Shown in pieces: positions 9,592-28,026 of a stretch of 28,942 nt of DNA. This DNA comes from a virus: positions 1 to 28,942 of the IMG/VR virus record IMGVR_UViG_3300029797_000015, one strand, 5' to 3'. The notes under the pieces were generated by a model. It did no database searches. It was not told the DNA's origin and saw only the letters and a program-made list of their open reading frames with translations. How positions within the stretch are numbered: position 1 is the first letter of the stretch; each line of letters begins with the position of its first letter. The translations under genes and the position numbers were made by a program.

Positions 9592-12500
9592 TTAATCTCT
9601 CAATGCCTCCTTATGATGCTCCTTAGCAAAGTTAATAAGGTGGGCTATAAACATCGGATCATTAGGCATAATAGTATTCTTAATGGAGTCCCAAAGGATA
9701 CCAGCCTGTCTCTCCTTTTCTTTAGGAGTAAGATTCTTAGCACCAACAGCCGAACCAGCTAGGTTATAAGCTGAGGCACCTAGATCAAAGGTATCCTGAA
9801 TATAACCCACAGCAGGGATATAACCAGCAACCTTATTACCTATTTTACCAGCCCTTGTTACATCAGAGGCATTCTGACGCATGGCTCGTTCTGTAGAGAT
9901 AGTTGTCTTAGCTGCATCACTAGTTAACCCTAAGGCACCTGTAACAAGTGATAAGCCAGCAAGTCTAGAGTTCCTATCATACATACCTTTTATAGCTGCA
10001 TGATACAAGAAGTCTGGGTCTTGCATATCTTTCCATGAAAACTCATCAACACCATACTGACGTTGAATATATTTCTTTTTCTTCTCAGGATCACTAATAG
10101 CATTAGCTCTCAGAGCAACTAGACCTAATGTCTGTAAGGATTGTAAAGCTGAGTCAATAAAGTATTCATACACAAAATCTTTATCCCCTTCGTAAGCGTA
10201 ACGATTACCAGCCTTAATCAATCTTTTATTGATAGACTTTAGAGCAAATGACTTGAACTGCAAGAGTAGTGTCAAAGCTGCATTATGACTACCACCCTTC
10301 CATAAGAACATAGAACCTGGGGTCTCTCGTTGGATAACCTCATTAGCAACATACTCTCCTATAATACCAAGTTGGTGCTGAAACTTAGGAGTCATATGAT
10401 CAAAGTAATCTTCTGATATACGAGGACTACCATTCTTATCCATAAAGGTCATCTTCTTAAGAGCTTCAAAGGTATGTTCTAGGTCTTTCTCAGTAAGCCC
10501 AAGTCTTTTCAAATGTTTAGGAGTAAAGAATCCTCTAGGGTTAAGATCACCACCGTGAACAAATCTAGTCATCTCAGCTAACAGTTCCTGTCTAGCTGTA
10601 GATACAATAGTGTTCTGAGAGTGGTACATAAACTGAGTCAAAGGGGAATTATTAGCCAACATCTTTGAACCTGTTACAAGAGAGGCAATAAACTTATTGT
10701 TGTACTTTTCAAGGTTCTTTTCCATTTCTCTAGGCCAGAATAAGGTTTCCCCAATGTCCTTATGGAATGTCATGTTCTCAAGTAGCCTAAGGTCATCAGC
10801 AGATGCCTTACCTCTTTCAAGTCTCTTTAACAGTTTACCAACAGCAGGTATATTCTTGAAGAAGAATGATGTACCATAAGCTCTGATACCAGCAGCGGTC
10901 TCAAAGTAGTTCATAATACCAAAAGCAGCATTCTTAGTGAACAACCCCATGTTTGTAGCTGTATCTAGCATACCCTCTACAAAACTCTTAGTAGCCCTAG
11001 CTCCTGACTTAGATACACCTGTTACCGGGAGACCGTAAGCTTGATATACCATCATCTTCATAGCTCTCAGCTCGCGTTCCCTATTCTTATTACTTTCAGG
11101 GATAGTCCTAGCAGCTTCATCGTAGATACCTTTGAGATAATTGAACCCATCAGTTGATCCTGTAGTATTCAACACAGAAAGATCACCAAGGGTTCTATTC
11201 ATATATCCATCATAGATATCCATCATCTTTGTATCAAGAATATCAGACACAGAGAAGTTACTATCTTTTCCTTTGTAGTACACATCCCAAGGTATCCTCT
11301 GTTCATACGGACTCATTTCATCAAAACCACCATTAGAATCCCAAAAGTTCCTATCATCAAGACGACGATTAAGGTATCCATAAGCACTCTTGTAAGCCCT
11401 ATCTGTTAGTTCCTCAGAGTAAACCTTATTGGGAATATCCTCATAAGCACCAATAGTATCTAATTCCTTTTGATACTTATCAAGGTTCTTCTGTCTAGTA
11501 GATATCTTTCTACGTATAGCTGCACGTTCCTTCCTAAGTTTAGCTATATCATCTTTAGACAGACCATCAAACTCATCCAGACCCTTAATTACAGCATCCG
11601 ATTGAAAGTCTTTATCAACAGGATGTTTAGTGGGAATCTTAGGACCAATCTCACTACGGACCCTTCCGGTATACTTAATGTCTGATCTACCTTTGAGAAG
11701 CTTCTCAGTTGAAGCAAAGAAGTCATCAAGCATAGTAGCTTCATCTTTACCAATACCAAAGAGCTTTGCTAAACTACGGATAATGCGTGTTCTAAAAGTT
11801 TCCTTACCTCTAACTGATTTGGTCTTCTTAAGGAATTCAACCAATTGAGGATTAACGAAACCTTCAGACAGGAGTTCATCAATACTAATTGACCAGTGTT
11901 GATAACCAGCATTAGGAAACTCATTAAAGAAAGCTGTTTTAGCTTCATATAAGATGTGTTCAAGTTCCCATTTAGCTTCAGTTTGCAGCCTAGTCCCTTT
12001 ACCTTGGTTAACCAAGATAAGACGCCTAGCTGTTACCGCATGGAACATCTCATGGAGCATGGTCTGATAATTATCCCCAGGAGGCATATGGATATCATTA
12101 GTAACTGGATGATAGAAACCGCCTACTACTCCACCTCCCGGTGTAATCTTAAAAGGACGATCATAGGTATGGATAACCATAGCAGGATCAATAATCCTCT
12201 TAAGCATCTCAGCTACAGCAGTGTGACGTTCACCTAAGGCACCACTCTTAAGCATCTCATCAAGAGTATCCTTCATAGTCTTAGTAGACACTAGCTTGTG
12301 CTTACTGGATATCATCTCCGAATACTGATTCTGGCCTGTGATACCTGATGTGACAATATTCTGTGTAGGTTCTTTAGGATCGCTAACTGTGCCGTCTTTA
12401 GTGACTGTCTTAGCATCCCCAATCTGTCTAGTTAAGTCTTGATCCTGTCTACGTAAGTTAGTCAGCTCTTTATCTACAGCTTTCCATTTAGCTTCAGTAT

Positions 12501-14730
12501 CCTTCCATTTCTTTTGAAGGACATCAATAGGAGTCTTATAGTTAGGGTCTTTAGCTGCATGTTCCATCCAAGCAGTATCAATAATATCTTTGAACTGTTT
12601 GAACTTATCCTCATTAGAGATAACACCTTCCCACAGGTTATTAGCCATTTCCTCCTGAAGGTCTTCAATAGCTCTAGTCCTTTCCTTCCCAATGGTGTTA
12701 ACTAGGTTCTCTACCTTCTCGCCATCACTTCTAACAGGGACATAGAAACCATCCTCAGGGATATTCCTACCAGCTCTTTCAGAAAGAATATTAGGAAGAT
12801 TCTCTTTACCAGCTATCTTTGAGGAATCTTTGAGCATCTCTTCAATCCACTCCATTGATTCCTTCCACATATAAGCAGCTTCTTGAAGAGGCTCAGGTAG
12901 CTTACTAATAGTTCCACTCTGTCCTGCATGGTAGATAGCTGTAACAGTATCATTAAAGTTCATCCCAAGTTTGGACATAGACCTTTTAACAGCACGAGCA
13001 AACTGTTCTCTATAGTAGTTAACCTCACCTATTAAACGCTGTCTAGTATCAAAGATAGTATCAGCATCTCGATGAACATTAACCATTTCATCGGCAGGGA
13101 GTTTAGAAGCTGCTCTAGTGTCACCTTCAACAGTCCCTTGAGAATAAGTTGTACCATCATCAAGATCAACCTTTACCTCACCAGTGTCACCACGTTTAGT
13201 TCCAATAACACCATCTTTCTCGGATATCTTATAACCAGCAGTAGGTCTTCCTATCTCATCAGGATAAAAGAGTCTCCCAAACTTCTTTACAAGTTCAGAA
13301 TCAGAAGCTTCTGTCCACTCTTGAAGGGTCATCTTAGGTTTAATCTTCTTGATAGCTTCCCATCTAGCTATGGTTTTCTTATTAAGATTATTAATAACCT
13401 TACCAACGACAGGGCTACCAGACATACCCTTAACTTGTCCTAGGTCTTTACCTATACGTGTGCCAGTTTCAATCAACTCAGCCCTAGTAGCAGAGTCTCT
13501 AAGCCACTGTGCTGATTTACCACTAAGTGCCCCAAGGCCATGAAAAGCAGATATCATCAGAGCACCTCCAATAAAGGCATCCCTGATATTCATTTCAGTT
13601 CCAGTTGTGTACTGTCTGAGTCCCTCACTAGCAGCTCCAAAGGAGCCACCAACACCAGCCATAGCGGACCACCATCCTAACTTAGCAGCTAGTTGTGAGT
13701 TAAACACCCTACCAGCGAATGTAGCACCCTTACCAGCAGTTTGAAACGCTATACCCAAAGGAATTGCATTAAGTGGATCAAAGACAGCTTCAGCAGTCAT
13801 ATTAACAAGAGTGTTACCTATACCTGAATTAGCTACTTGCTGATTATACTCTTTTTGTTCATCCATCCTAGCTACTAGGTTCTCAAAGTCACCTTCATAT
13901 ACTGTGTTACGGAGAACCCATTGAGCAGCAGGGGAATCTAAAGAACCATACTTCTGTGTCAAAAGATCAAGGTCAGATGGTGTGGGTCTATATAGTTTAG
14001 TGTTCCTACCAAAGTAATCACCATCAACACTATATCTAGCAAGGCGCATCGCAGCGAGATCAACCCACGTTCCAAGCGTTGAATTAAGTCTAACTGAATC
14101 AAGTATGTTAACAGCTTCGTTAGCAATTTCTTTCTCACTACGAACACTACCAATAGCAGTATCAAACACGTTATTACGTTTGAAGAGATCACGGTCATAT
14201 GGGAGGTCATTTACAGAAGAAGCAGGGGAATATTCAATACCTGCTTCCTCATATACCCCCTGTACGTTTGAATTAATTATATCCCTAGAAGAGGTAATAG
14301 CAGAAGGTTCCTGTTGAACACTCTCAGTAAATACACCAATCTTATCAACATAATTCAAAGTCTCTTCTTTGGTAGGCTTCTGACCTGACGCTACCAACTT
14401 TCCCTGAGAGGTACCACCATTGTAATGAGCCACAGCAGCCGCCCAATTACCTTTATACTGCCCTTTGAGATCAGACAGGTAATTAGCCGCAGCTTGAATA
14501 GATTTAGTAGGATTGAAGAAATCTTCATCAGTGTTCAACCCATAGGAAGCACCAGTCTTAGGCATGAACTGAGCTATACCTTTAGCACCAGCAGGTGATA
14601 CTGCATTAGGATTGAAAGAAGACTCAGTAAATAAGAGCTTCCTAAAAGAATCATGTGGAATATCGAATTCATCTGCCATCTCTTTGATATAAGCATCATA
14701 ATCAGACGGCTGTGTGGGATCATAAGGCAT
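9592..14730 (-). CDS. Internal virion protein gp16-like: lytic transglycosylase plus metallopeptidase-like segment, 1712 aa
   Basis: Ejected core protein that crosses the cell wall and helps pull the first DNA into the cell. Residues ~10-130 form an SLT-type lytic transglycosylase: probable catalytic E36 in FTESSFNPNAVSPAGAKGIA, then QFMPKTG and AVAHYNGG (99-106). T7 gp16 has the same domain at its N-terminus. A long helical middle follows. Residues ~840-1000 contain HEMFH (893-897), a HExxH zinc site, with a downstream DELLSEGFVNPQLVEFL (951-967) whose E956 or E952 could be the third ligand. The C-terminal ~400 residues are the usual gp16-type region (TPGSMFLWKG, LLLQFKSFALKSINKRL). T7 gp16 is 1318 aa, so about 390 residues are extra. 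The start has GAGGAG 8 nt upstream. Confidence 0.95.
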   Translation of the reverse strand: MPYDPTQPSDYDAYIKEMADEFDIPHDSFRKLLFTESSFNPNAVSPAGAKGIAQFMPKTGASYGLNTDEDFFNPTKSIQAAANYLSDLKGQYKGNWAAAVAHYNGGTSQGKLVASGQKPTKEETLNYVDKIGVFTESVQQEPSAITSSRDIINSNVQGVYEEAGIEYSPASSVNDLPYDRDLFKRNNVFDTAIGSVRSEKEIANEAVNILDSVRLNSTLGTWVDLAAMRLARYSVDGDYFGRNTKLYRPTPSDLDLLTQKYGSLDSPAAQWVLRNTVYEGDFENLVARMDEQKEYNQQVANSGIGNTLVNMTAEAVFDPLNAIPLGIAFQTAGKGATFAGRVFNSQLAAKLGWWSAMAGVGGSFGAASEGLRQYTTGTEMNIRDAFIGGALMISAFHGLGALSGKSAQWLRDSATRAELIETGTRIGKDLGQVKGMSGSPVVGKVINNLNKKTIARWEAIKKIKPKMTLQEWTEASDSELVKKFGRLFYPDEIGRPTAGYKISEKDGVIGTKRGDTGEVKVDLDDGTTYSQGTVEGDTRAASKLPADEMVNVHRDADTIFDTRQRLIGEVNYYREQFARAVKRSMSKLGMNFNDTVTAIYHAGQSGTISKLPEPLQEAAYMWKESMEWIEEMLKDSSKIAGKENLPNILSERAGRNIPEDGFYVPVRSDGEKVENLVNTIGKERTRAIEDLQEEMANNLWEGVISNEDKFKQFKDIIDTAWMEHAAKDPNYKTPIDVLQKKWKDTEAKWKAVDKELTNLRRQDQDLTRQIGDAKTVTKDGTVSDPKEPTQNIVTSGITGQNQYSEMISSKHKLVSTKTMKDTLDEMLKSGALGERHTAVAEMLKRIIDPAMVIHTYDRPFKITPGGGVVGGFYHPVTNDIHMPPGDNYQTMLHEMFHAVTARRLILVNQGKGTRLQTEAKWELEHILYEAKTAFFNEFPNAGYQHWSISIDELLSEGFVNPQLVEFLKKTKSVRGKETFRTRIIRSLAKLFGIGKDEATMLDDFFASTEKLLKGRSDIKYTGRVRSEIGPKIPTKHPVDKDFQSDAVIKGLDEFDGLSKDDIAKLRKERAAIRRKISTRQKNLDKYQKELDTIGAYEDIPNKVYSEELTDRAYKSAYGYLNRRLDDRNFWDSNGGFDEMSPYEQRIPWDVYYKGKDSNFSVSDILDTKMMDIYDGYMNRTLGDLSVLNTTGSTDGFNYLKGIYDEAARTIPESNKNRERELRAMKMMVYQAYGLPVTGVSKSGARATKSFVEGMLDTATNMGLFTKNAAFGIMNYFETAAGIRAYGTSFFFKNIPAVGKLLKRLERGKASADDLRLLENMTFHKDIGETLFWPREMEKNLEKYNNKFIASLVTGSKMLANNSPLTQFMYHSQNTIVSTARQELLAEMTRFVHGGDLNPRGFFTPKHLKRLGLTEKDLEHTFEALKKMTFMDKNGSPRISEDYFDHMTPKFQHQLGIIGEYVANEVIQRETPGSMFLWKGGSHNAALTLLLQFKSFALKSINKRLIKAGNRYAYEGDKDFVYEYFIDSALQSLQTLGLVALRANAISDPEKKKKYIQRQYGVDEFSWKDMQDPDFLYHAAIKGMYDRNSRLAGLSLVTGALGLTSDAAKTTISTERAMRQNASDVTRAGKIGNKVAGYIPAVGYIQDTFDLGASAYNLAGSAVGAKNLTPKEKERQAGILWDSIKNTIMPNDPMFIAHLINFAKEHHKEALRD

Positions 14731-14757: not shown

Positions 14758-16845
14758 TTAGTTAGTATTATTTGTTGTTGATACAATAGAGTCTTTAGTG
14801 AAGAGATATGATCCATTAATAATCCCAGGTTCATATACGCGAACACCCTTAGACAAAGGATCATATTCAAAGTATAAATCTTTCTCTTCAAACTTAGCTT
14901 CAATACTAGCAATGAAGTCAGTAAGAGATTTATTGACATCATCAATACTCATCTCAGGTGGGAACTGTTGATAGAAAGATGTAGGTATATAAGTTTCTAC
15001 TTCATCTCTAGAGCTATCCCAAATCAGCCCCTTGTCTTTATGAGGGGACTGATAAGTAAATTGTTGGTGTGTTGCTTTGAAGTCATGTTTGGCTTCTTTA
15101 ATAGCTGTAGCAGAATCTTTACCAGACGCTAATTTAACAAGAGCAAGTCTTCTAATAAACAATGTTTCATAAGCTGAGTTATCTTCCTCTGCGGTACGTG
15201 TTTTAATAGGGAGTTCAAGGTCAAATCTCTCTCTGACACTCTTCTTCTTAAACATAGCAGAAGCATTAACATACTCACCAAAAGTACCACCACTAGCCAT
15301 AAACCCAATGATGTCCAAGGCGTCCGCTTGTTCATAATCCACAATACCAGAGACTTTCCTAGGATCATTATTGATGTAAGATAGTACCTGCTTTAACCCA
15401 TCAGGTTCCCTAATAGAATCAGGGGTCTTAAATCCCGATGCAACAGCTTCAATATCAGACTTAACCTGACCAGCTATCTCACCAAAGAGACTTTTGAACA
15501 TCTTCTGTCCATCTTTATCAGTAAGCATACGGTCAACCATATCAGGGGATAATTGACCACTCATAAAGTGTTGTCTAAGTATCTCCTGAAGATGCTCATG
15601 TGATGGTGTACCTAGAGATGTTCCATCAGCAGCAAATAACTGATTACCAGCAGGTGATGTAGTAGGATCAGCTAATCCAGCTAGGAGAGATGTAGTATAA
15701 GAAGCTAGTGTTCCAATTCTAATCTGATCTTTCATAAGTGCGGTAGCTTTTCCAACATCCTTAGTAAGTTTCTTATTATAGGCATCTATAGCTGATTGAA
15801 CTTTTTCAGTTGCTTTAGTAACCTGACCACCTGCTTGATCAGCTAATGTCTGTTGTAGTGCTCTCAAACCACCAATATCATTATTCAAGACAAGAGAGCT
15901 GATCTGCTCATCAAGCTGTTTATTATTAGTAAAGTCTTGAATCATCCTGATGTTATTTGATTTAACCTTTGTAGCATTAATAGTTTCATCACCAAACAAC
16001 ATCCTATAAGTAATACCACCACTCAGACCTGGGACGTTCTTATCAGCCAATTGATCAATCTTAAGGAATCCATCAGGATGATTAGCTATAGCTTCAATTG
16101 TGCTCTTAGCTACCTTCATTGCATCCTCAGGCATCCTACCTGCAACACCACTCTGCATAAGCATAGTGAGTCCATTATGGAGATCATCAACACTACCATC
16201 CAACAGTTCATTAATCTGTGATTCAGCAGCTATCTGCCCCTGTTGCTTCCTGAAGTCATCCTTGACTGTCTCAGATGTCTTCCACACGTACTCTCGTGTC
16301 TTATTGGCGTCTACCCAGAACCCATTAAGGAATGCTCCAGAACTCCCAAGGGAACCATGAGCTTCTCCAAGGTCAGTAGCTACTTTCCTCTGGTGGTCAA
16401 TGAAGACCTGATCAATCTCTTCAGGGGACATATCAATAAACTCATCAGTCTTGAGTCTATCGTTAAATTCCATCATACCAATATTGAAAGCATTCCTACC
16501 TTGGATAGTGGCCAGGGATGCCATAGCAAATGGATCATACTGGAAGGGTACTTTATTCTCCTTCATCTCATTAGCTACTTCTTGGAATGATTTACCGTTA
16601 GCCCACTCCTGGGCATTCTTATCAGCTACCTTCTTAATATTATCGTAGGCGTCATTAGCACCTTCCATGACATCCAAAAGTGAACCAGCAAGGTTAAACC
16701 TCTCAGGTTCAAACTTAGGGGCCACAACCTGAGTCATAGCCCCTTTGGATTCTTGAAGTTGCTGCATAGCCCCGGAGAACTGCCTCCACTGACCAACAGC
16801 GGCACCAGCAGTTGTATTACTAAACTTACCACCTCCAATAGCCAT
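14758..16845 (-). CDS. Internal virion protein gp15-like, 695 aa
   Basis: Large soluble, mostly helical protein between the gp14- and gp16-like genes, the place and about the size of T7 gp15 (747 aa). In T7 gp15 forms part of the internal core and, with gp16, the periplasmic and cytoplasmic section of the DNA-ejection channel. It begins MAIGGGKFSNTTAGAAVGQW, shows many helical stretches (LQQTLADQAGGQVTKATEKV) and has no catalytic motif, signal peptide or membrane helix that I can see. AGAGGTGATGATGT precedes the ATG. The call rests on synteny, length and composition. Confidence 0.88.
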   Translation of the reverse strand: MAIGGGKFSNTTAGAAVGQWRQFSGAMQQLQESKGAMTQVVAPKFEPERFNLAGSLLDVMEGANDAYDNIKKVADKNAQEWANGKSFQEVANEMKENKVPFQYDPFAMASLATIQGRNAFNIGMMEFNDRLKTDEFIDMSPEEIDQVFIDHQRKVATDLGEAHGSLGSSGAFLNGFWVDANKTREYVWKTSETVKDDFRKQQGQIAAESQINELLDGSVDDLHNGLTMLMQSGVAGRMPEDAMKVAKSTIEAIANHPDGFLKIDQLADKNVPGLSGGITYRMLFGDETINATKVKSNNIRMIQDFTNNKQLDEQISSLVLNNDIGGLRALQQTLADQAGGQVTKATEKVQSAIDAYNKKLTKDVGKATALMKDQIRIGTLASYTTSLLAGLADPTTSPAGNQLFAADGTSLGTPSHEHLQEILRQHFMSGQLSPDMVDRMLTDKDGQKMFKSLFGEIAGQVKSDIEAVASGFKTPDSIREPDGLKQVLSYINNDPRKVSGIVDYEQADALDIIGFMASGGTFGEYVNASAMFKKKSVRERFDLELPIKTRTAEEDNSAYETLFIRRLALVKLASGKDSATAIKEAKHDFKATHQQFTYQSPHKDKGLIWDSSRDEVETYIPTSFYQQFPPEMSIDDVNKSLTDFIASIEAKFEEKDLYFEYDPLSKGVRVYEPGIINGSYLFTKDSIVSTTNNTN

Positions 16846-17526: not shown

Positions 17527-20500
17527 TTACATCCTCCTCGCCCTAGTTGTATATAGTCCTTCCCAACCACCACCAGTGATGCCAAAGGGTGTAGGAGAGT
17601 CAGATTCAATTACAATCTGTGTCTTAGTGTTATGACCATGAATAGGTATCCTGAACTGTTCATTACCTATAGCTGTGCTTCCAAGTTCTGTGCTTTCTGT
17701 CCCAAGGATTCTAGGAGTGAACCTATAATAGAATACCCTACTATTATCATTAATCTTTCCATCAGGATATACATAGACAGAGAAAGGTCCACAATCAGTA
17801 GTATCCAACCAGAGATACCTAAGCATCAGAACACCTTCAGTATATGGTATAATACTACCATTCTGATTAGTTGACTTAAGGTATAACTTAGAGAGTTCAG
17901 CAGTAAAGGTAAGTGTTCTCCCAATGACTACAGCACGATCACTAAAGTTACCGTATAGGTAGAATGATCCACCATCAATAGCATCTCTAGATTCTTCTAA
18001 GATAGCTCTAAACAGACCATCAGATGTAATCACATCGTAAGTTCCATCACCCCAGATACGGGTACTATCATAACCATAAATATCAGCTAACCTAAAGAAT
18101 GTCTTGTTAGTAGCTGCATCATAGTTACCACTAGGAACTGTATACTCTACTTTACGATCAATAAAATACCTAGTCTGTTCAGCATCAGGGAAGTCAACTG
18201 TGTTACCAACAAGTCTAAGGTAATGAAGTTCAACACCTTCAGGGGTAGTTACTAACATCATTAACCTATCATCAACGAACTCTGCAAGGTGTATCAGCCA
18301 GTCCTCAGGGAATACCCATTCTGACCATGACTGTTGTACAAACTGATTGTTCATCTCTTTGAACTTAAATACGAATACTTTATTACGAGCACTCTTAGTT
18401 AGCATAGAGATGATATCCTCAGTCACACTACCAGACATCCTAAAGAGTCCATTAGGTAAGTAATTAGGTACATGAGCTGTTACATCATCTGCTCGTTTAA
18501 GTTCAGGTGACTCAATAACAGAGGCATATTTATACACACTAGAATAAATAGCACGCTTGGATACAAAATAGATGCCGTTACCAATAGAAACAGGAGCACA
18601 TGATTTATCGTAAGCATTAGCTGAAACATAATCTACCCTATTGTTCTTTGCACTTAATACACCTTCACCTCTAAGGATGAACTGAGCTTCCTTAGCAAAC
18701 ACAAGTAGGTCTGTCTCCATGGGGACAGCATCAAGGAGAATATTAACTGAAGCATTCTTCTTCACATCAGCAGACACTGCAACATCAATAGGGTCTTCAT
18801 CAATAATACCAGTAGCTGAGTCAAACCAGAACTGGAAGAACTCACTAGACTTAGACAAGATAATATTCTCATCAGAGAGGAACCCTAACCTATTTCTGAA
18901 GAAGAAGATATCATTAATAGTTCTGTCCACAAAGGAAGGCTTAGAGTTAGTATTGTCATCACCTGTCAATCTCTCATACCACTCTACAGGCTGAAGAGTA
19001 AATGTTCCATCAGCTTCTCTAACAAGAGACTGAGGCATGGTGTTAGGGTCTATCTCTACTTCAATATCAGGAGCAGCCACCTCAACCCAGTTAGTCTTAT
19101 CAGCTTTGTACTCCAACCAGAAGTCGTCAGTAGTCTCTGTGTTATACCCTTTAACTCTAATTCTTAAGTTAGGAGCACACACAGGAGGGAGATCATTAAT
19201 TGACTTAACCTCACCCATGAAGCACTTCATATTGTTATTACCAAAACCATCACCACATGTGATAATATCAGTGCTAGAGAATGGGGTTCCATTATAACCA
19301 GTGAGAAGAATCCAATCCTGTCCAGCTTCATAATCATACAAAGCTGTACTCAAGTTAGAGGCTAACTGTGCTATAACATTAGTAGTAGTAGCACTCGTAG
19401 AATGTGATGGATCACTGCCATTAGGAACAGTATAACTAGCGATAGCAGAGCCATTAAGGAGTATTTCATGTTTCTTTCCGTATGCTGTATTCTTACAATA
19501 AATAAGTGCTTGAACAGGTAAAGCTAGTGTCTTCTTAGTGGTCATACTAACTTCTTTCTCTTTATTGAGAATGAAAGTATAATCAGCAATAGTGACAGCC
19601 TTAATAGATTCTTCAGGGGCACCTGTAAGACCACTAAAATAAGCAGCAGATTCGGGTGTGATAGTTACATCATATTCAGTACCTTCAAGGTCAAATACCC
19701 TGACCATCTTAGGAGGCGGTGGGGTTTCAGTTGGGTCATCATTGTATACAACACCTGTTACAATAAGCTTAACAGCTCCATGCCCACCTTTCTTACCAAG
19801 ATACTTAGGGCTGATAGGTTTATCACCACCTTCACCAACAGTTACATAAACAGTTCTAGCACCTCTCTGGAGAGTAACTTTAGACTTAACATAACCACCA
19901 GTACCACCACCACCGTGTCTCTGCTTGTACGATGTATAGGTACCACCACCATATCCCTTAGATGTACCCCAAATGGTGTTAATATACCTAGTAGGTGCTG
20001 TATAATAAGACTCATACTTGTAGTACCCAGGAAGACCTCCAGGGAGACCTCCTAGAGCCTGAACAGCATTTCTACCACCTTGTCCACCGCCAACAGAAAC
20101 AATTTTTTCATTACCTATATTTAGAACAGAAGCAGTACCCGATTCTCCAGGGGTCATCTCGTCATATGTAATTCTATCTGTAAAGTAATTAACATCTTTA
20201 TCCTGGCATAAACCACCCTCACCACCTCCACCAAGAACCCAATACTCAAAAGTCTGCGCCCATTCTGGAAGCTCTACCTCATAGGTTCCAGGAGTAGTCC
20301 ACTCATAGGTGAGAGACATAGGAGTACCTTCTTGATCAGTGGGATCAGGTAACACATAATCACTAGGAGGGGTAAGAACCATAATATACTTTTCATTTTC
20401 ATCCCTATTGATAACATGTATCTTACTAGTGTCCAAGTTAGGAATAGACATCTTCTTTAGGAATACACTAGGAGGTCTCTTAAGTAACCCTAAGACTTCA

Positions 20501-20610
20501 TCAGAGAACCCATTAACCTGTCTTTCAAGCTGGTCAGGAAACCTAAGCTGTGAAGGCTGTTGTGATATACCTCCTTTGAAAGAAGGAAGGGCTTGGGAAA
20601 TCAAACCCAT
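17527..20610 (-). CDS. Tail tubular protein B / nozzle (T7 gp12-like) with a glycine-rich inserted domain, 1027 aa
   Basis: Forms the tail nozzle below gp11, holds fibre N-termini and opens for DNA exit. The family start is clear: SQALPSFKGGISQQPSQLRF, then GFSDEVLGLLKRPPSVF and HVINRDENEKYIMV. The usual partner strand (MVRVFDLEGTEYDV, from residue 302) comes only after an extra ~215 residues (about 84-300). This insert begins like a Gly-rich adhesin domain (TTPGTYEVELPEWAQTFEYW, then VLGGGGEGG) and has VGGGQGG, GGLPGGLPG, GYGGGTY, RHGGGGTGGY and VGEGGDKP, and ends in a TPPPPK linker. Without it the length is about 812, near T7 gp12 (794). The remainder, including DRTINDIFFFRNRLGFLSDE, is conserved. 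GGAGG stands 7 nt before the ATG. Confidence 0.95.
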   Translation of the reverse strand: MGLISQALPSFKGGISQQPSQLRFPDQLERQVNGFSDEVLGLLKRPPSVFLKKMSIPNLDTSKIHVINRDENEKYIMVLTPPSDYVLPDPTDQEGTPMSLTYEWTTPGTYEVELPEWAQTFEYWVLGGGGEGGLCQDKDVNYFTDRITYDEMTPGESGTASVLNIGNEKIVSVGGGQGGRNAVQALGGLPGGLPGYYKYESYYTAPTRYINTIWGTSKGYGGGTYTSYKQRHGGGGTGGYVKSKVTLQRGARTVYVTVGEGGDKPISPKYLGKKGGHGAVKLIVTGVVYNDDPTETPPPPKMVRVFDLEGTEYDVTITPESAAYFSGLTGAPEESIKAVTIADYTFILNKEKEVSMTTKKTLALPVQALIYCKNTAYGKKHEILLNGSAIASYTVPNGSDPSHSTSATTTNVIAQLASNLSTALYDYEAGQDWILLTGYNGTPFSSTDIITCGDGFGNNNMKCFMGEVKSINDLPPVCAPNLRIRVKGYNTETTDDFWLEYKADKTNWVEVAAPDIEVEIDPNTMPQSLVREADGTFTLQPVEWYERLTGDDNTNSKPSFVDRTINDIFFFRNRLGFLSDENIILSKSSEFFQFWFDSATGIIDEDPIDVAVSADVKKNASVNILLDAVPMETDLLVFAKEAQFILRGEGVLSAKNNRVDYVSANAYDKSCAPVSIGNGIYFVSKRAIYSSVYKYASVIESPELKRADDVTAHVPNYLPNGLFRMSGSVTEDIISMLTKSARNKVFVFKFKEMNNQFVQQSWSEWVFPEDWLIHLAEFVDDRLMMLVTTPEGVELHYLRLVGNTVDFPDAEQTRYFIDRKVEYTVPSGNYDAATNKTFFRLADIYGYDSTRIWGDGTYDVITSDGLFRAILEESRDAIDGGSFYLYGNFSDRAVVIGRTLTFTAELSKLYLKSTNQNGSIIPYTEGVLMLRYLWLDTTDCGPFSVYVYPDGKINDNSRVFYYRFTPRILGTESTELGSTAIGNEQFRIPIHGHNTKTQIVIESDSPTPFGITGGGWEGLYTTRARRM

Positions 20611-26007: not shown

Positions 26008-28026
26008 TCATTTAATTGGGCACGCTCCAGTGGCACACTCATCACCTGTATCAATCTCATTAGACATACTTTCATCTATCTCCGAGAAGTCAACATCCTT
26101 AAGTTTATTAACATAAGCATCATATTCAGCTTTAGTTACTACTGTCTGTGGAAGATAGGCAGCACCTAAATCTTCTGCTCTGAGTAGAGGGTTATACCTC
26201 TTAAGGAACGATACACCAACATAACAGTCCCAATTAGATAACAACCAGTCAATAATATGTTTGATCTCACTATCATCATAGTAGATAGTCTGAGATACAT
26301 TCTGGTGACACCAATTCTTCTGCCATTTCTTGTACCTTTCTAACTGATCAATAGCTGGTTCAAGATTACATTCAATCTCACCATACTTCTTATCCTTCAT
26401 CTTCTCAAAGCTTATATTATCATAAGCAATAGGAAAAGTTACAAGAGTAGCATCATGGTTAGTTGGGTGTTTCTCTGTCATATAACCAGCCATCATAAGC
26501 TTGGGTATCATAGGATCGTGATTACCAAAGACAATCTTATTAAAAATATACTTCCCCATAGGCTTATGAATACCTTCTGTAGTATCCATAATCTTAGACA
26601 TAGTGCCACTAGGTTTAATAGTAGTAACATTCTTAGGGTGAGGCATACTAAGTTCATCAGCCATTTGATAAGCTGCAAAAGTAGCTACTCGCTGAAGCTC
26701 CATAATGTCGTACTCGCTCATATCATCCCTTTGGGCAACACCAGTAACACCAACACCACAAAGATGAAGATGCTGATTATTCTGGTGCCAAGCATCCTGA
26801 AGGATACCATCTCTGAGGTCAACACAAGTCTGTCGATAGTTAGCCCTAGCAATAATCTTAGTTACCTTATGGAGTCTACTAGGGTTATCCTTAAACTTAG
26901 CTAGATCAATCTCAACAAGATTACAAAATCCTTTATTAGGAAGAAGAATCTCTGCACAAGGGTTCACACCAGAGAACCAAGGAGCTTTTCTTCTAGCTTC
27001 CATTGCGTTAATGAATCCAGGTTCACATCCACCACCTTCAACCATAAGCTTAAAGATGTGCTCTAGTTCACTCTTAGAGGGTTTAGTTTCAAAAAGCAGT
27101 GAGTTATTAGACTGTGCTCTCTGAGGGTTATTAACCCAATACTCACGTTTCATAAGAGCAAACTCATTAGCCATTGTCGAACTTGAAGGAACCAATGCAA
27201 TCTCAGCACTACGCCTAGAAGAAAGAATAGTTCCCAAATGATTCATAATATCAATGATATCAATCTCATTAAGGAGGAACCCAGACTTTCTATTAAGGAT
27301 ATCAATGATAGATACCATAGCTTTACAGAACATGGTATCACCAGAAGATATCCATCCATATCCATTCAACCTAACACCAGCAGCACGAATCTCAGAGAAG
27401 TCAAGGACAATCTCTGTAACCCTCTCCTTGAGGGCCAGGAGCTTACCAACAGCCTTACTCCACGCTTCCGCTGAGTCTCCAATACGAAGCTGCCAGACGC
27501 CCGTAGCGGGGTCGTAGTCGGTCACGTTAGCGTCGTTACCTCTTTCTCCCTGGAGCCACTGAGAGAGTGTTCTGTCGCTTCGTATGACGGTCACTGTAGG
27601 CACCGGATTGGAAAAACCGCTTAGGGTACCAACCTTAGGAGTGAACCCTACACCGCATCCCTGCATCAAAAGCCAAATTGCATCAACTACATCTGCAATT
27701 GTTTCAGTATGGAGATATGCACAATTAAACATAGAGGCTTCCCTGCGTTTGGAAATAGAGGTACCTCCTAACCAGAGAGTGCGCCCACTAACAGACGCTT
27801 CTCTAGCCAGGAGGATACCCCTAAGGTCTTCCAACTCAGCCCACTGGTTAGAGCCAAGGTTAACACCCCTAGCCCGTTCCCAAAGCCATGCTTGATGTGC
27901 AACCACCCGATCAACTATCTGTTCCCATGTTTCTAGTACCTCTGAGGACTCAAGTAAGTTACCCTCAATAGGTCTTGCATAGGTTCTTTTAGTTACGATC
28001 TTTGATCTGATAGATTGCTTTCCCAT
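26008..28026 (-). CDS. nrdJ: Adenosylcobalamin-dependent (class II) ribonucleoside-triphosphate reductase, 672 aa
   Basis: Makes deoxynucleotides for phage DNA synthesis using coenzyme B12 to generate the thiyl radical. It resembles the monomeric Lactobacillus leichmannii enzyme (739 aa). Visible features are the active-site NPCAEI (355-360, radical Cys357 and Glu359), Cys368 eleven residues on as in the family (C408/C419), Cys102 in FNCAYL as the likely partner, LMQGCGVGF (120-128), and a C-terminal CATGACPIK redox pair (Cys664/Cys669) matching C731/C736. Because it is class II it needs no radical-storing small subunit, and none is next to it. AAGGAA precedes the ATG. The DNA at about 27480-27600 is more GC-rich than the rest of the gene. 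Confidence 0.95.
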   Translation of the reverse strand: MGKQSIRSKIVTKRTYARPIEGNLLESSEVLETWEQIVDRVVAHQAWLWERARGVNLGSNQWAELEDLRGILLAREASVSGRTLWLGGTSISKRREASMFNCAYLHTETIADVVDAIWLLMQGCGVGFTPKVGTLSGFSNPVPTVTVIRSDRTLSQWLQGERGNDANVTDYDPATGVWQLRIGDSAEAWSKAVGKLLALKERVTEIVLDFSEIRAAGVRLNGYGWISSGDTMFCKAMVSIIDILNRKSGFLLNEIDIIDIMNHLGTILSSRRSAEIALVPSSSTMANEFALMKREYWVNNPQRAQSNNSLLFETKPSKSELEHIFKLMVEGGGCEPGFINAMEARRKAPWFSGVNPCAEILLPNKGFCNLVEIDLAKFKDNPSRLHKVTKIIARANYRQTCVDLRDGILQDAWHQNNQHLHLCGVGVTGVAQRDDMSEYDIMELQRVATFAAYQMADELSMPHPKNVTTIKPSGTMSKIMDTTEGIHKPMGKYIFNKIVFGNHDPMIPKLMMAGYMTEKHPTNHDATLVTFPIAYDNISFEKMKDKKYGEIECNLEPAIDQLERYKKWQKNWCHQNVSQTIYYDDSEIKHIIDWLLSNWDCYVGVSFLKRYNPLLRAEDLGAAYLPQTVVTKAEYDAYVNKLKDVDFSEIDESMSNEIDTGDECATGACPIK

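Follow-up and report, generated by a model that had tools for sequence, protein, structure and literature searches.

The gp16-like ejection protein encoded in this viral DNA carries a zincin-like metallopeptidase domain in addition to an N-terminal lytic transglycosylase (SLT). The stretch analysed here, which we call the window, is the IMG/VR record IMGVR_UViG_3300029797_000015 from position 1 to 28,942. Judged from its sequence, the segment around the HEMFH motif of the protein is a real zincin-like domain and more than a chance occurrence of HExxH, since it has homology that is independent of the motif and is conserved. We consider it about 60% probable that this is a metallopeptidase of the polyvalent or N4-vRNAP C1 type, inserted in the cytoplasmic part of gp16 and acting after ejection.

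A T7-like gp16 protein with an intact transglycosylase

The 1712-residue protein matches phrog_342, 'internal virion protein with endolysin domain' (E 9e-119), as well as the T7 gp16 PDB chains (E 4e-32), with residues ~1118-1694 aligned to T7 744-1298. At the other end of the chain, the SLT catalytic Glu E36 (TESSF) is aligned with E37, the catalytic Glu of the T7 gp16 transglycosylase (PMC8954989). The gene order is also T7-like: head-tail adaptor, scaffold, capsid and two tail tube proteins are followed by gp14-, gp15- and gp16-like proteins, and then by a T7-type tail fibre, a holin and the small and large terminase subunits. Both the N- and C-terminal homology and the order gp14-gp15-gp16-tail fibre are thus those of the T7 gp16-like (phrog_342) group. 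The original prediction had T7 gp16 about 390 residues shorter, as is borne out by the two lengths (1712 vs 1318 aa), and it had the putative peptidase sharing a protein with the transglycosylase; the zincin segment does coexist with an intact SLT. The features of the protein are collected in Table 1.

The gp15-like protein (window 14758-16845, minus strand) is very divergent: at E 1e-5 it has matches in only 8 phage records, and a lysozyme domain was not found in it. In the tail nozzle protein (window 17527-20610, minus strand; 1027 aa), ~300 extra residues at the N terminus precede the Phage_nozzle match, a short run rich in glycine among them. The T7-like cluster also has a ribonucleotide reductase gene (window 26008-28026, minus strand), upstream of the one for the head-tail adaptor.

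Table 1. Features of the gp16-like protein, with their positions in the window.
Feature	Position	Strand	Basis
gp16-like internal virion / DNA-ejection protein, ATG start, 1712 aa	9592..14730	-	phrog_342, T7 gp16 PDB chains
N-terminal lytic transglycosylase (SLT), residues 13-110	14401..14694	-	PF01464, E 2e-24
Hydrophobic stretch, residues 384-404, corresponding to T7 membrane region I	13519..13581	-	hydropathy scan; T7 region I 243-410 from PMC8954989
First long helix of putative coiled-coil stalk, residues 734-772	12415..12531	-	model m6355f05208c0, helix 10-48
Flexible linker, residues 788-813, pLDDT < 50	12292..12369	-	long model
Zincin-like metallopeptidase domain, ~residues 800-1015	11686..12333	-	profile 79.8 bits; model; PhiM1/N4 structural match; phrog_2206
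Three-strand sheet of predicted zincin core, strands 852-856, 872-874, 879-882	12085..12177	-	DSSP on model m2a659f98f4c3
HExxH motif H893-E894-M-F-H897, in helix 888-908	12040..12054	-	sequence, model, 32/32 alignment
E952, predicted third metal ligand, in helix 950-959	11875..11877	-	invariant 32/32; helix in model
E956, alternative Glu	11863..11865	-	Glu in 6/32 at its column, mostly W/Y/G elsewhere
Flexible linker, residues 1015-1054, pLDDT < 50	11569..11688	-	long model
Second long helix of putative coiled-coil stalk, residues 1059-1114	11389..11556	-	model helix 335-390
G1118, equivalent of T7 gp16 G737	11377..11379	-	AYG alignment
gp16 C-terminal region, residues 1119-1694, aligned to T7 gp16 744-1298	9649..11376	-	alignment

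The HEMFH site belongs to a domain that is recognised without its motif

The segment singled out in the original prediction, 11731-12183, corresponds to residues 850-1000. HEMFH is present at residues 893-897 (window 12054-12040) as claimed. The protein has no other HExxH, and its composition would predict ~0.03. On its own, an HExxH would prove little: T7 gp16 also has one (HERLH 559), which goes unrecognised by the profile of the family described here. This profile was made from 31 relatives, with the window left out, and scored 79.8 bits against the domain. With HEMFH masked the score was 51.3 bits, with E952 masked too it was 44.3 bits, and with 20 residues around the motif masked it was still 40.6 bits; 200 shuffled inserts that kept HEMFH scored at most 4.9 bits. 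T7 gp16, HERLH 559 included, gave no match to the family profile, and Delftia phage IME-DE1 is without the motif; HERLH 559 was therefore rejected as an ancestral site.

The domain is also matched by phrog_2206, virion RNA polymerase (E 2e-9), which together with the profile places it in the N4-vRNAP C1 / podophage ejection-protein zincin family. At 23-29% identity, tblastn and blastp found internal virion proteins of Providencia phage PS3, of Pseudomonas putida phages and of Xanthomonas pradovirus and Klebsiella KP34-type phages, together with a vRNAP-sized protein of Acinetobacter phage At2. The Pfam family PF18818 MPTase-PolyVal reached 12.3-12.5 bits (E 0.16-0.18), under its gathering cut-off of 27.5 bits, and the domain is not assigned to that entry. 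Both a zincin-type domain with HExxH and Glu and the likeness to large polyvalent phage proteins, proposed from the motif and a downstream Glu, are supported.

H893, E894, H897 and E952 are invariant in 32/32 aligned sequences, namely the window and relatives that are only ~12-25% identical to it; all relatives retain the HExxH residues for which conservation had been proposed as a check. The relatives were collected by similarity and cut around HExxH, which conditions the conservation for the motif, and not for E952, and the invariance could partly reflect this selection. In a profile search of 43 fetched loci that did not require the motif, every strong match had HExxH. Two glutamates, E952 and E956, had been put forward as the remaining ligand. 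The invariance of E952 points to it as the third ligand, whereas E956, with Glu in only 6/32 at that column, is ruled out. The site thus has what is expected of a zincin, an HExxH with both His and the catalytic Glu, and a downstream Glu on a second helix.

The predicted fold is zincin-like

AlphaFold2 was run on residues 788-1022 with 23 sequences in the alignment; the domain was folded alone because a model of domain plus coil gave Foldseek and VIA lists full of coiled coils. In the resulting model (m2a659f98f4c3; pLDDT 84.8, pTM 0.82), the predicted core consists of an N-terminal helix, a three-strand sheet, the HExxH helix and the Glu helix, the elements by which Iyer et al. (2017; PMC5512222) define a zincin core. 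The best structural match was PhiM1 gp48 288-515 (Z 10.7, rmsd 3.1 Å over 147 residues), followed by N4 vRNAP 2131-2364, the C1 domain (Z 9.0), and more weakly by the anthrax lethal factor catalytic domain (Z 6.8, rmsd 5.1 over 152). A Foldseek search of the domain model against the PDB gave nothing below E 0.2. Against predicted viral structures (BFVD), E values went down to 9e-8, and the top matches included phage internal core proteins, an LT_GEWL (transglycosylase) protein and polyvalent-protein entries. We base the structural claim on the VIA Z-scores, the BFVD matches and the sequence profiles. A comparison of the prediction with gluzincin folds, suggested at the outset, accordingly yields a zincin-like model that is matched by PhiM1, N4 and lethal factor.

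The domain is inserted ahead of the genome-clamp residues

Compared with T7 gp16, the protein has ~380 extra residues, placed at ~T7 690-735 directly ahead of the conserved AYG; the upstream border is only rough because similarity is low there. The insertion lies within the equivalent of T7 411-1118 and adjoins the residues of the genome clamp. In T7, a clamp halts DNA entry at ~850 bp and is lost in the mutants G737D, I754T and E761K (PMC8954989); according to T7 genetics cited there, G737D allows the entire genome in even when there is no transcription. A longer AlphaFold2 model (m6355f05208c0), spanning residues 725-1115, has two long helices whose best structural alignments are coiled coils, including the dynein stalk. 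At the same gp16 place, the near relative MT835695 has a long coiled-coil-like stretch and no peptidase. We infer that this part of gp16 is a coiled-coil hairpin, with pairing of the two helices as modelled, the tip of which accepts insertions. The modelled stalk-like mounting of a zincin just before the T7 genome-clamp residues appears to be new here.

Klebsiella phage phi1_146025 has a ~170-residue coiled-coil-like insertion in its gp16 (L011 995-5458, residues ~718-888), at T7 716-720. Its HERLH and ~170-aa insertion were considered as a peptidase and rejected, being a T7-type motif and a coiled coil instead.

Relatives, spread and annotation

By terminase and capsid, the nearest relatives are MT835695, MT835557 (human faeces) and IME-DE1, and the zincin domain is absent from all of them. 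For this reason a gain of the domain in this T7-like lineage is likely. IMG/VR scans with the domain or the whole protein found no close relatives of the window protein, and a scan with the Luutsna domain found none either. A domain tree of 30 rows gave the window no supported place, its pairing with Luutsna being a long-branch join; as the tree is too poorly resolved, we claim no donor.

Single-query searches, whose result sets overlap, found the domain in 346, 350 and 131 phage records, and by similarity the zincin occurs in hundreds of phiKMV-, KP34-, Pradovirus- and N4-type records. The proteins that house it differ, comprising gp16-like proteins, vRNAP and other large phage proteins.

Two viral contigs (L052 1436-2833 and L053 2941-4338) encode a large protein with two tandem zincin copies (HELTH and HEVSH), and the protein of the former had no PHROG match. 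In MT835557, the gp16-like protein (L065 8713-12069) has 1119 aa; its alignment to the window protein does not start until residue 241, and both an N-terminal match to the SLT region and a zincin domain are absent. In Xanthomonas phage F5 (L005 3246-8151) the gp16 gene is split into two ORFs of 1059 and 581 aa, vs the single 1633-aa protein of Titan-X, possibly through a frameshift or a sequencing error.

The public labels of such proteins are often those of wall-cutting enzymes: in phages of the KP34, Kakivirus and P. putida types, the gp16-like proteins (L007 3954-7652, L002 3891-7700 and L003 3567-8144) are called 'peptidoglycan lytic exotransglycosylase' or 'endolysin domain'. An SLT scan of the gp16-like proteins of CX1, PS3 and Luutsna gave no match, and the zincin domain is present in them. 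In the open-licence papers considered here, the lack of an SLT match in gp16 of the KP34, PS3 and Luutsna types appears unreported, as does the zincin nature of the corresponding region of PhiM1 gp48. This suggests that 'endolysin/exotransglycosylase' labels on gp16 of the phiKMV, KP34 and PhiM1 types point at the wrong enzyme. The invariant four-residue site is common to hundreds of podophage records, including those of phiKMV, KP34-type and N4-type phages.

Where and when the domain would act

The composite model of T7 gp16 puts the N-terminal part (1-228) in the periplasm and 411-1118 in the host cytoplasm, with putative membrane regions at 243-410 and 1119-1290 (PMC8954989). In the gp16-like relatives examined, HExxH lies between the first and the last hydrophobic regions by hydropathy; in the window protein only the first region passes the threshold and the second is weak, the topology itself being modelled from T7. 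With the domain in the part of gp16 modelled as cytoplasmic, the host cytoplasm is the likely compartment. Of the two sites of action originally envisaged, periplasm or cytoplasm, the T7 topology model thus favours the latter and speaks against the former. N4 vRNAP, with the same domain, likewise works in the cytoplasm (PMC5512222, PMC12633501).

From the homology, conservation, predicted fold and position, we infer the following as the best explanation. The domain, which flexible linkers would attach to what appears to be the tip of an antiparallel coiled coil, would bind Zn2+ through H893, H897 and E952, with E894 activating water. Packaged in one piece, the protein would leave the virion as a thread ahead of the DNA. 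The periplasm would be the place of action of the transglycosylase. The peptidase would arrive next to the genome-entry clamp on the cytoplasmic side and cut a protein of that compartment, either a host factor or an ejectosome protein whose state would change after entry. Given their positions on the T7-inferred topology, the inner membrane would lie between the places where the two enzymes work. Ejection as such does not require the domain, since the gp16 proteins of T7 and of the nearest relatives of this phage are without it. Because injected virion proteins act before phage gene expression, a protease carried in with them could serve early on against the host or in control of the ejectosome. 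Only tentatively do we go further, to an active, ejected cytoplasmic zinc peptidase that was gained by a T7-like lineage and sits on a coiled-coil stalk by the genome-entry clamp, and that cleaves a specific host protein, possibly one of defence, or resets the ejectosome within the first minutes of infection, with an activity that would be common to phiKMV-, KP34- and N4-type phages.

A special case of this best explanation, possible if doubtful, is that the peptidase acts after DNA entry on its own ejectosome and not on host proteins; by cleaving gp16 or gp15 it would open or shut the channel, or free or shut the DNA clamp. Its place next to the region whose T7 mutations release the early clamp would fit, as would the need for the ejectosome to be shut or taken apart once ejection is over (PMC12633501); however, T7 and the nearest relatives of this phage manage without the domain, and in the N4 and phiKMV types it is found at another position in the chain, both of which argue against such cutting.

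We regard it as rather unlikely that the domain is by now a structural part of the core, serving core packing, DNA organisation or as a structural metal site, with no proteolysis that matters. In PhiM1 the equivalent domain belongs to the ordered portion of the core, and a groove that separates it from the lysozyme-like domain of an octameric protein is occupied by coils of DNA (PMC11440229); for N4, HExxH is reported and no activity is mentioned in the parts of the paper considered here (PMC12633501). A structural metal site, however, has no need of the general base E894, and yet this residue and the rest of the catalytic set are invariant, which argues for catalysis. The occurrence of the domain in gp16-like proteins, vRNAP and other large phage proteins fits a mobile enzymatic module as well.

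Quite improbable is a role in maturation, in which the protease would process its own gp16, or else further proteins of the core or capsid, while the virion is being assembled, either ahead of entry into the head or within it. Such processing before packaging is known of P1 DdrB, a polyvalent protein with a C-terminal MPTase, and autoprocessing has been proposed for the class (PMC5512222); the flexible linkers on both sides of the domain would suit it. Against this reading, N4 vRNAP is packaged unprocessed (PMC5512222), 1103 of the 1263 residues of the PhiM1 gp48 chain are modelled in the mature virion, and related phages without the domain exist, so that it is no general requirement for building the core. 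The analogy with N4 vRNAP makes self-processing ahead of packaging unlikely for this protein, for which self-processing of the core had been suggested originally. Finally, a chance HExxH within a coiled-coil insertion, for which the HERLH of T7 gp16 and the peptidase-free insertion of phi1_146025 at the same gp16 place could serve as precedents, has practically no probability, as it is refuted by the profile test with masked motif and shuffled inserts and contradicted by motif-independent homology, invariance and fold.

Comparison with known systems

Zincins in injected phage proteins are an already recognised kind of part. Iyer et al. (2017) recognised the N4 vRNAP domain as a zincin-like metallopeptidase, and found that no other domain is as common in polyvalent proteins as MPTases of this sort (PMC5512222). 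They also described fusions to lysozyme domains and suggested that the MPTases process their own proteins or act on the host; a C1 domain with HExxH is described in the N4 cryo-EM preprint (PMC12633501). The window domain and N4 vRNAP C1 have the same fold in the model, the HExxH and Glu, and detectable sequence homology, and both are part of an injected virion protein in which a large helical C-terminus follows. Unlike the window domain, C1 is fused to an RNA polymerase rather than to a transglycosylase and gp16, and identity in the structural alignment is ~14%.

PhiM1 gp48, a tetrameric ejection protein (PDB 8vb2), is a gp16-like core protein and the top structural match, with conserved HEAAH and HEF motifs and a sequence match to the domain (E 9e-17). 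It differs in how its region 268-528, which coincides with the zincin domain, is described: the authors call it endolysin/exotransglycosidase-like and assign the lysozyme-like domain to the gp15-like protein (PMC11440229). The domain is also matched by a 1337-residue internal virion protein in PDB 9sfn, which has the length of phiKMV gp37 (E 4e-14), and by gp10 in PDB 23sg (E 9e-33). phiKMV gp37 and KP34-type core proteins have the same domain, with HExxH and Glu, which in them lies between two hydrophobic regions; in the phiKMV/KP34 type it is found ~160-200 residues further upstream of the conserved C-terminal region, and the KP34, PS3 and Luutsna types have no SLT match.

T7 gp16 has the SLT, the membrane regions and the C-terminal clamp region in common with the window protein and is without the zincin domain, its HERLH being unrelated by the profile test. 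The combination of SLT and zincin is not unique, since Xanthomonas pradoviruses have both in one gp16, as exemplified by Titan-X (1633 aa), where the domain is at another place in the chain and ~23% identical. What is new about the zincin of this SLT-bearing T7-like gp16 is that it is absent from the nearest relatives and located in the part of the protein modelled as cytoplasmic.
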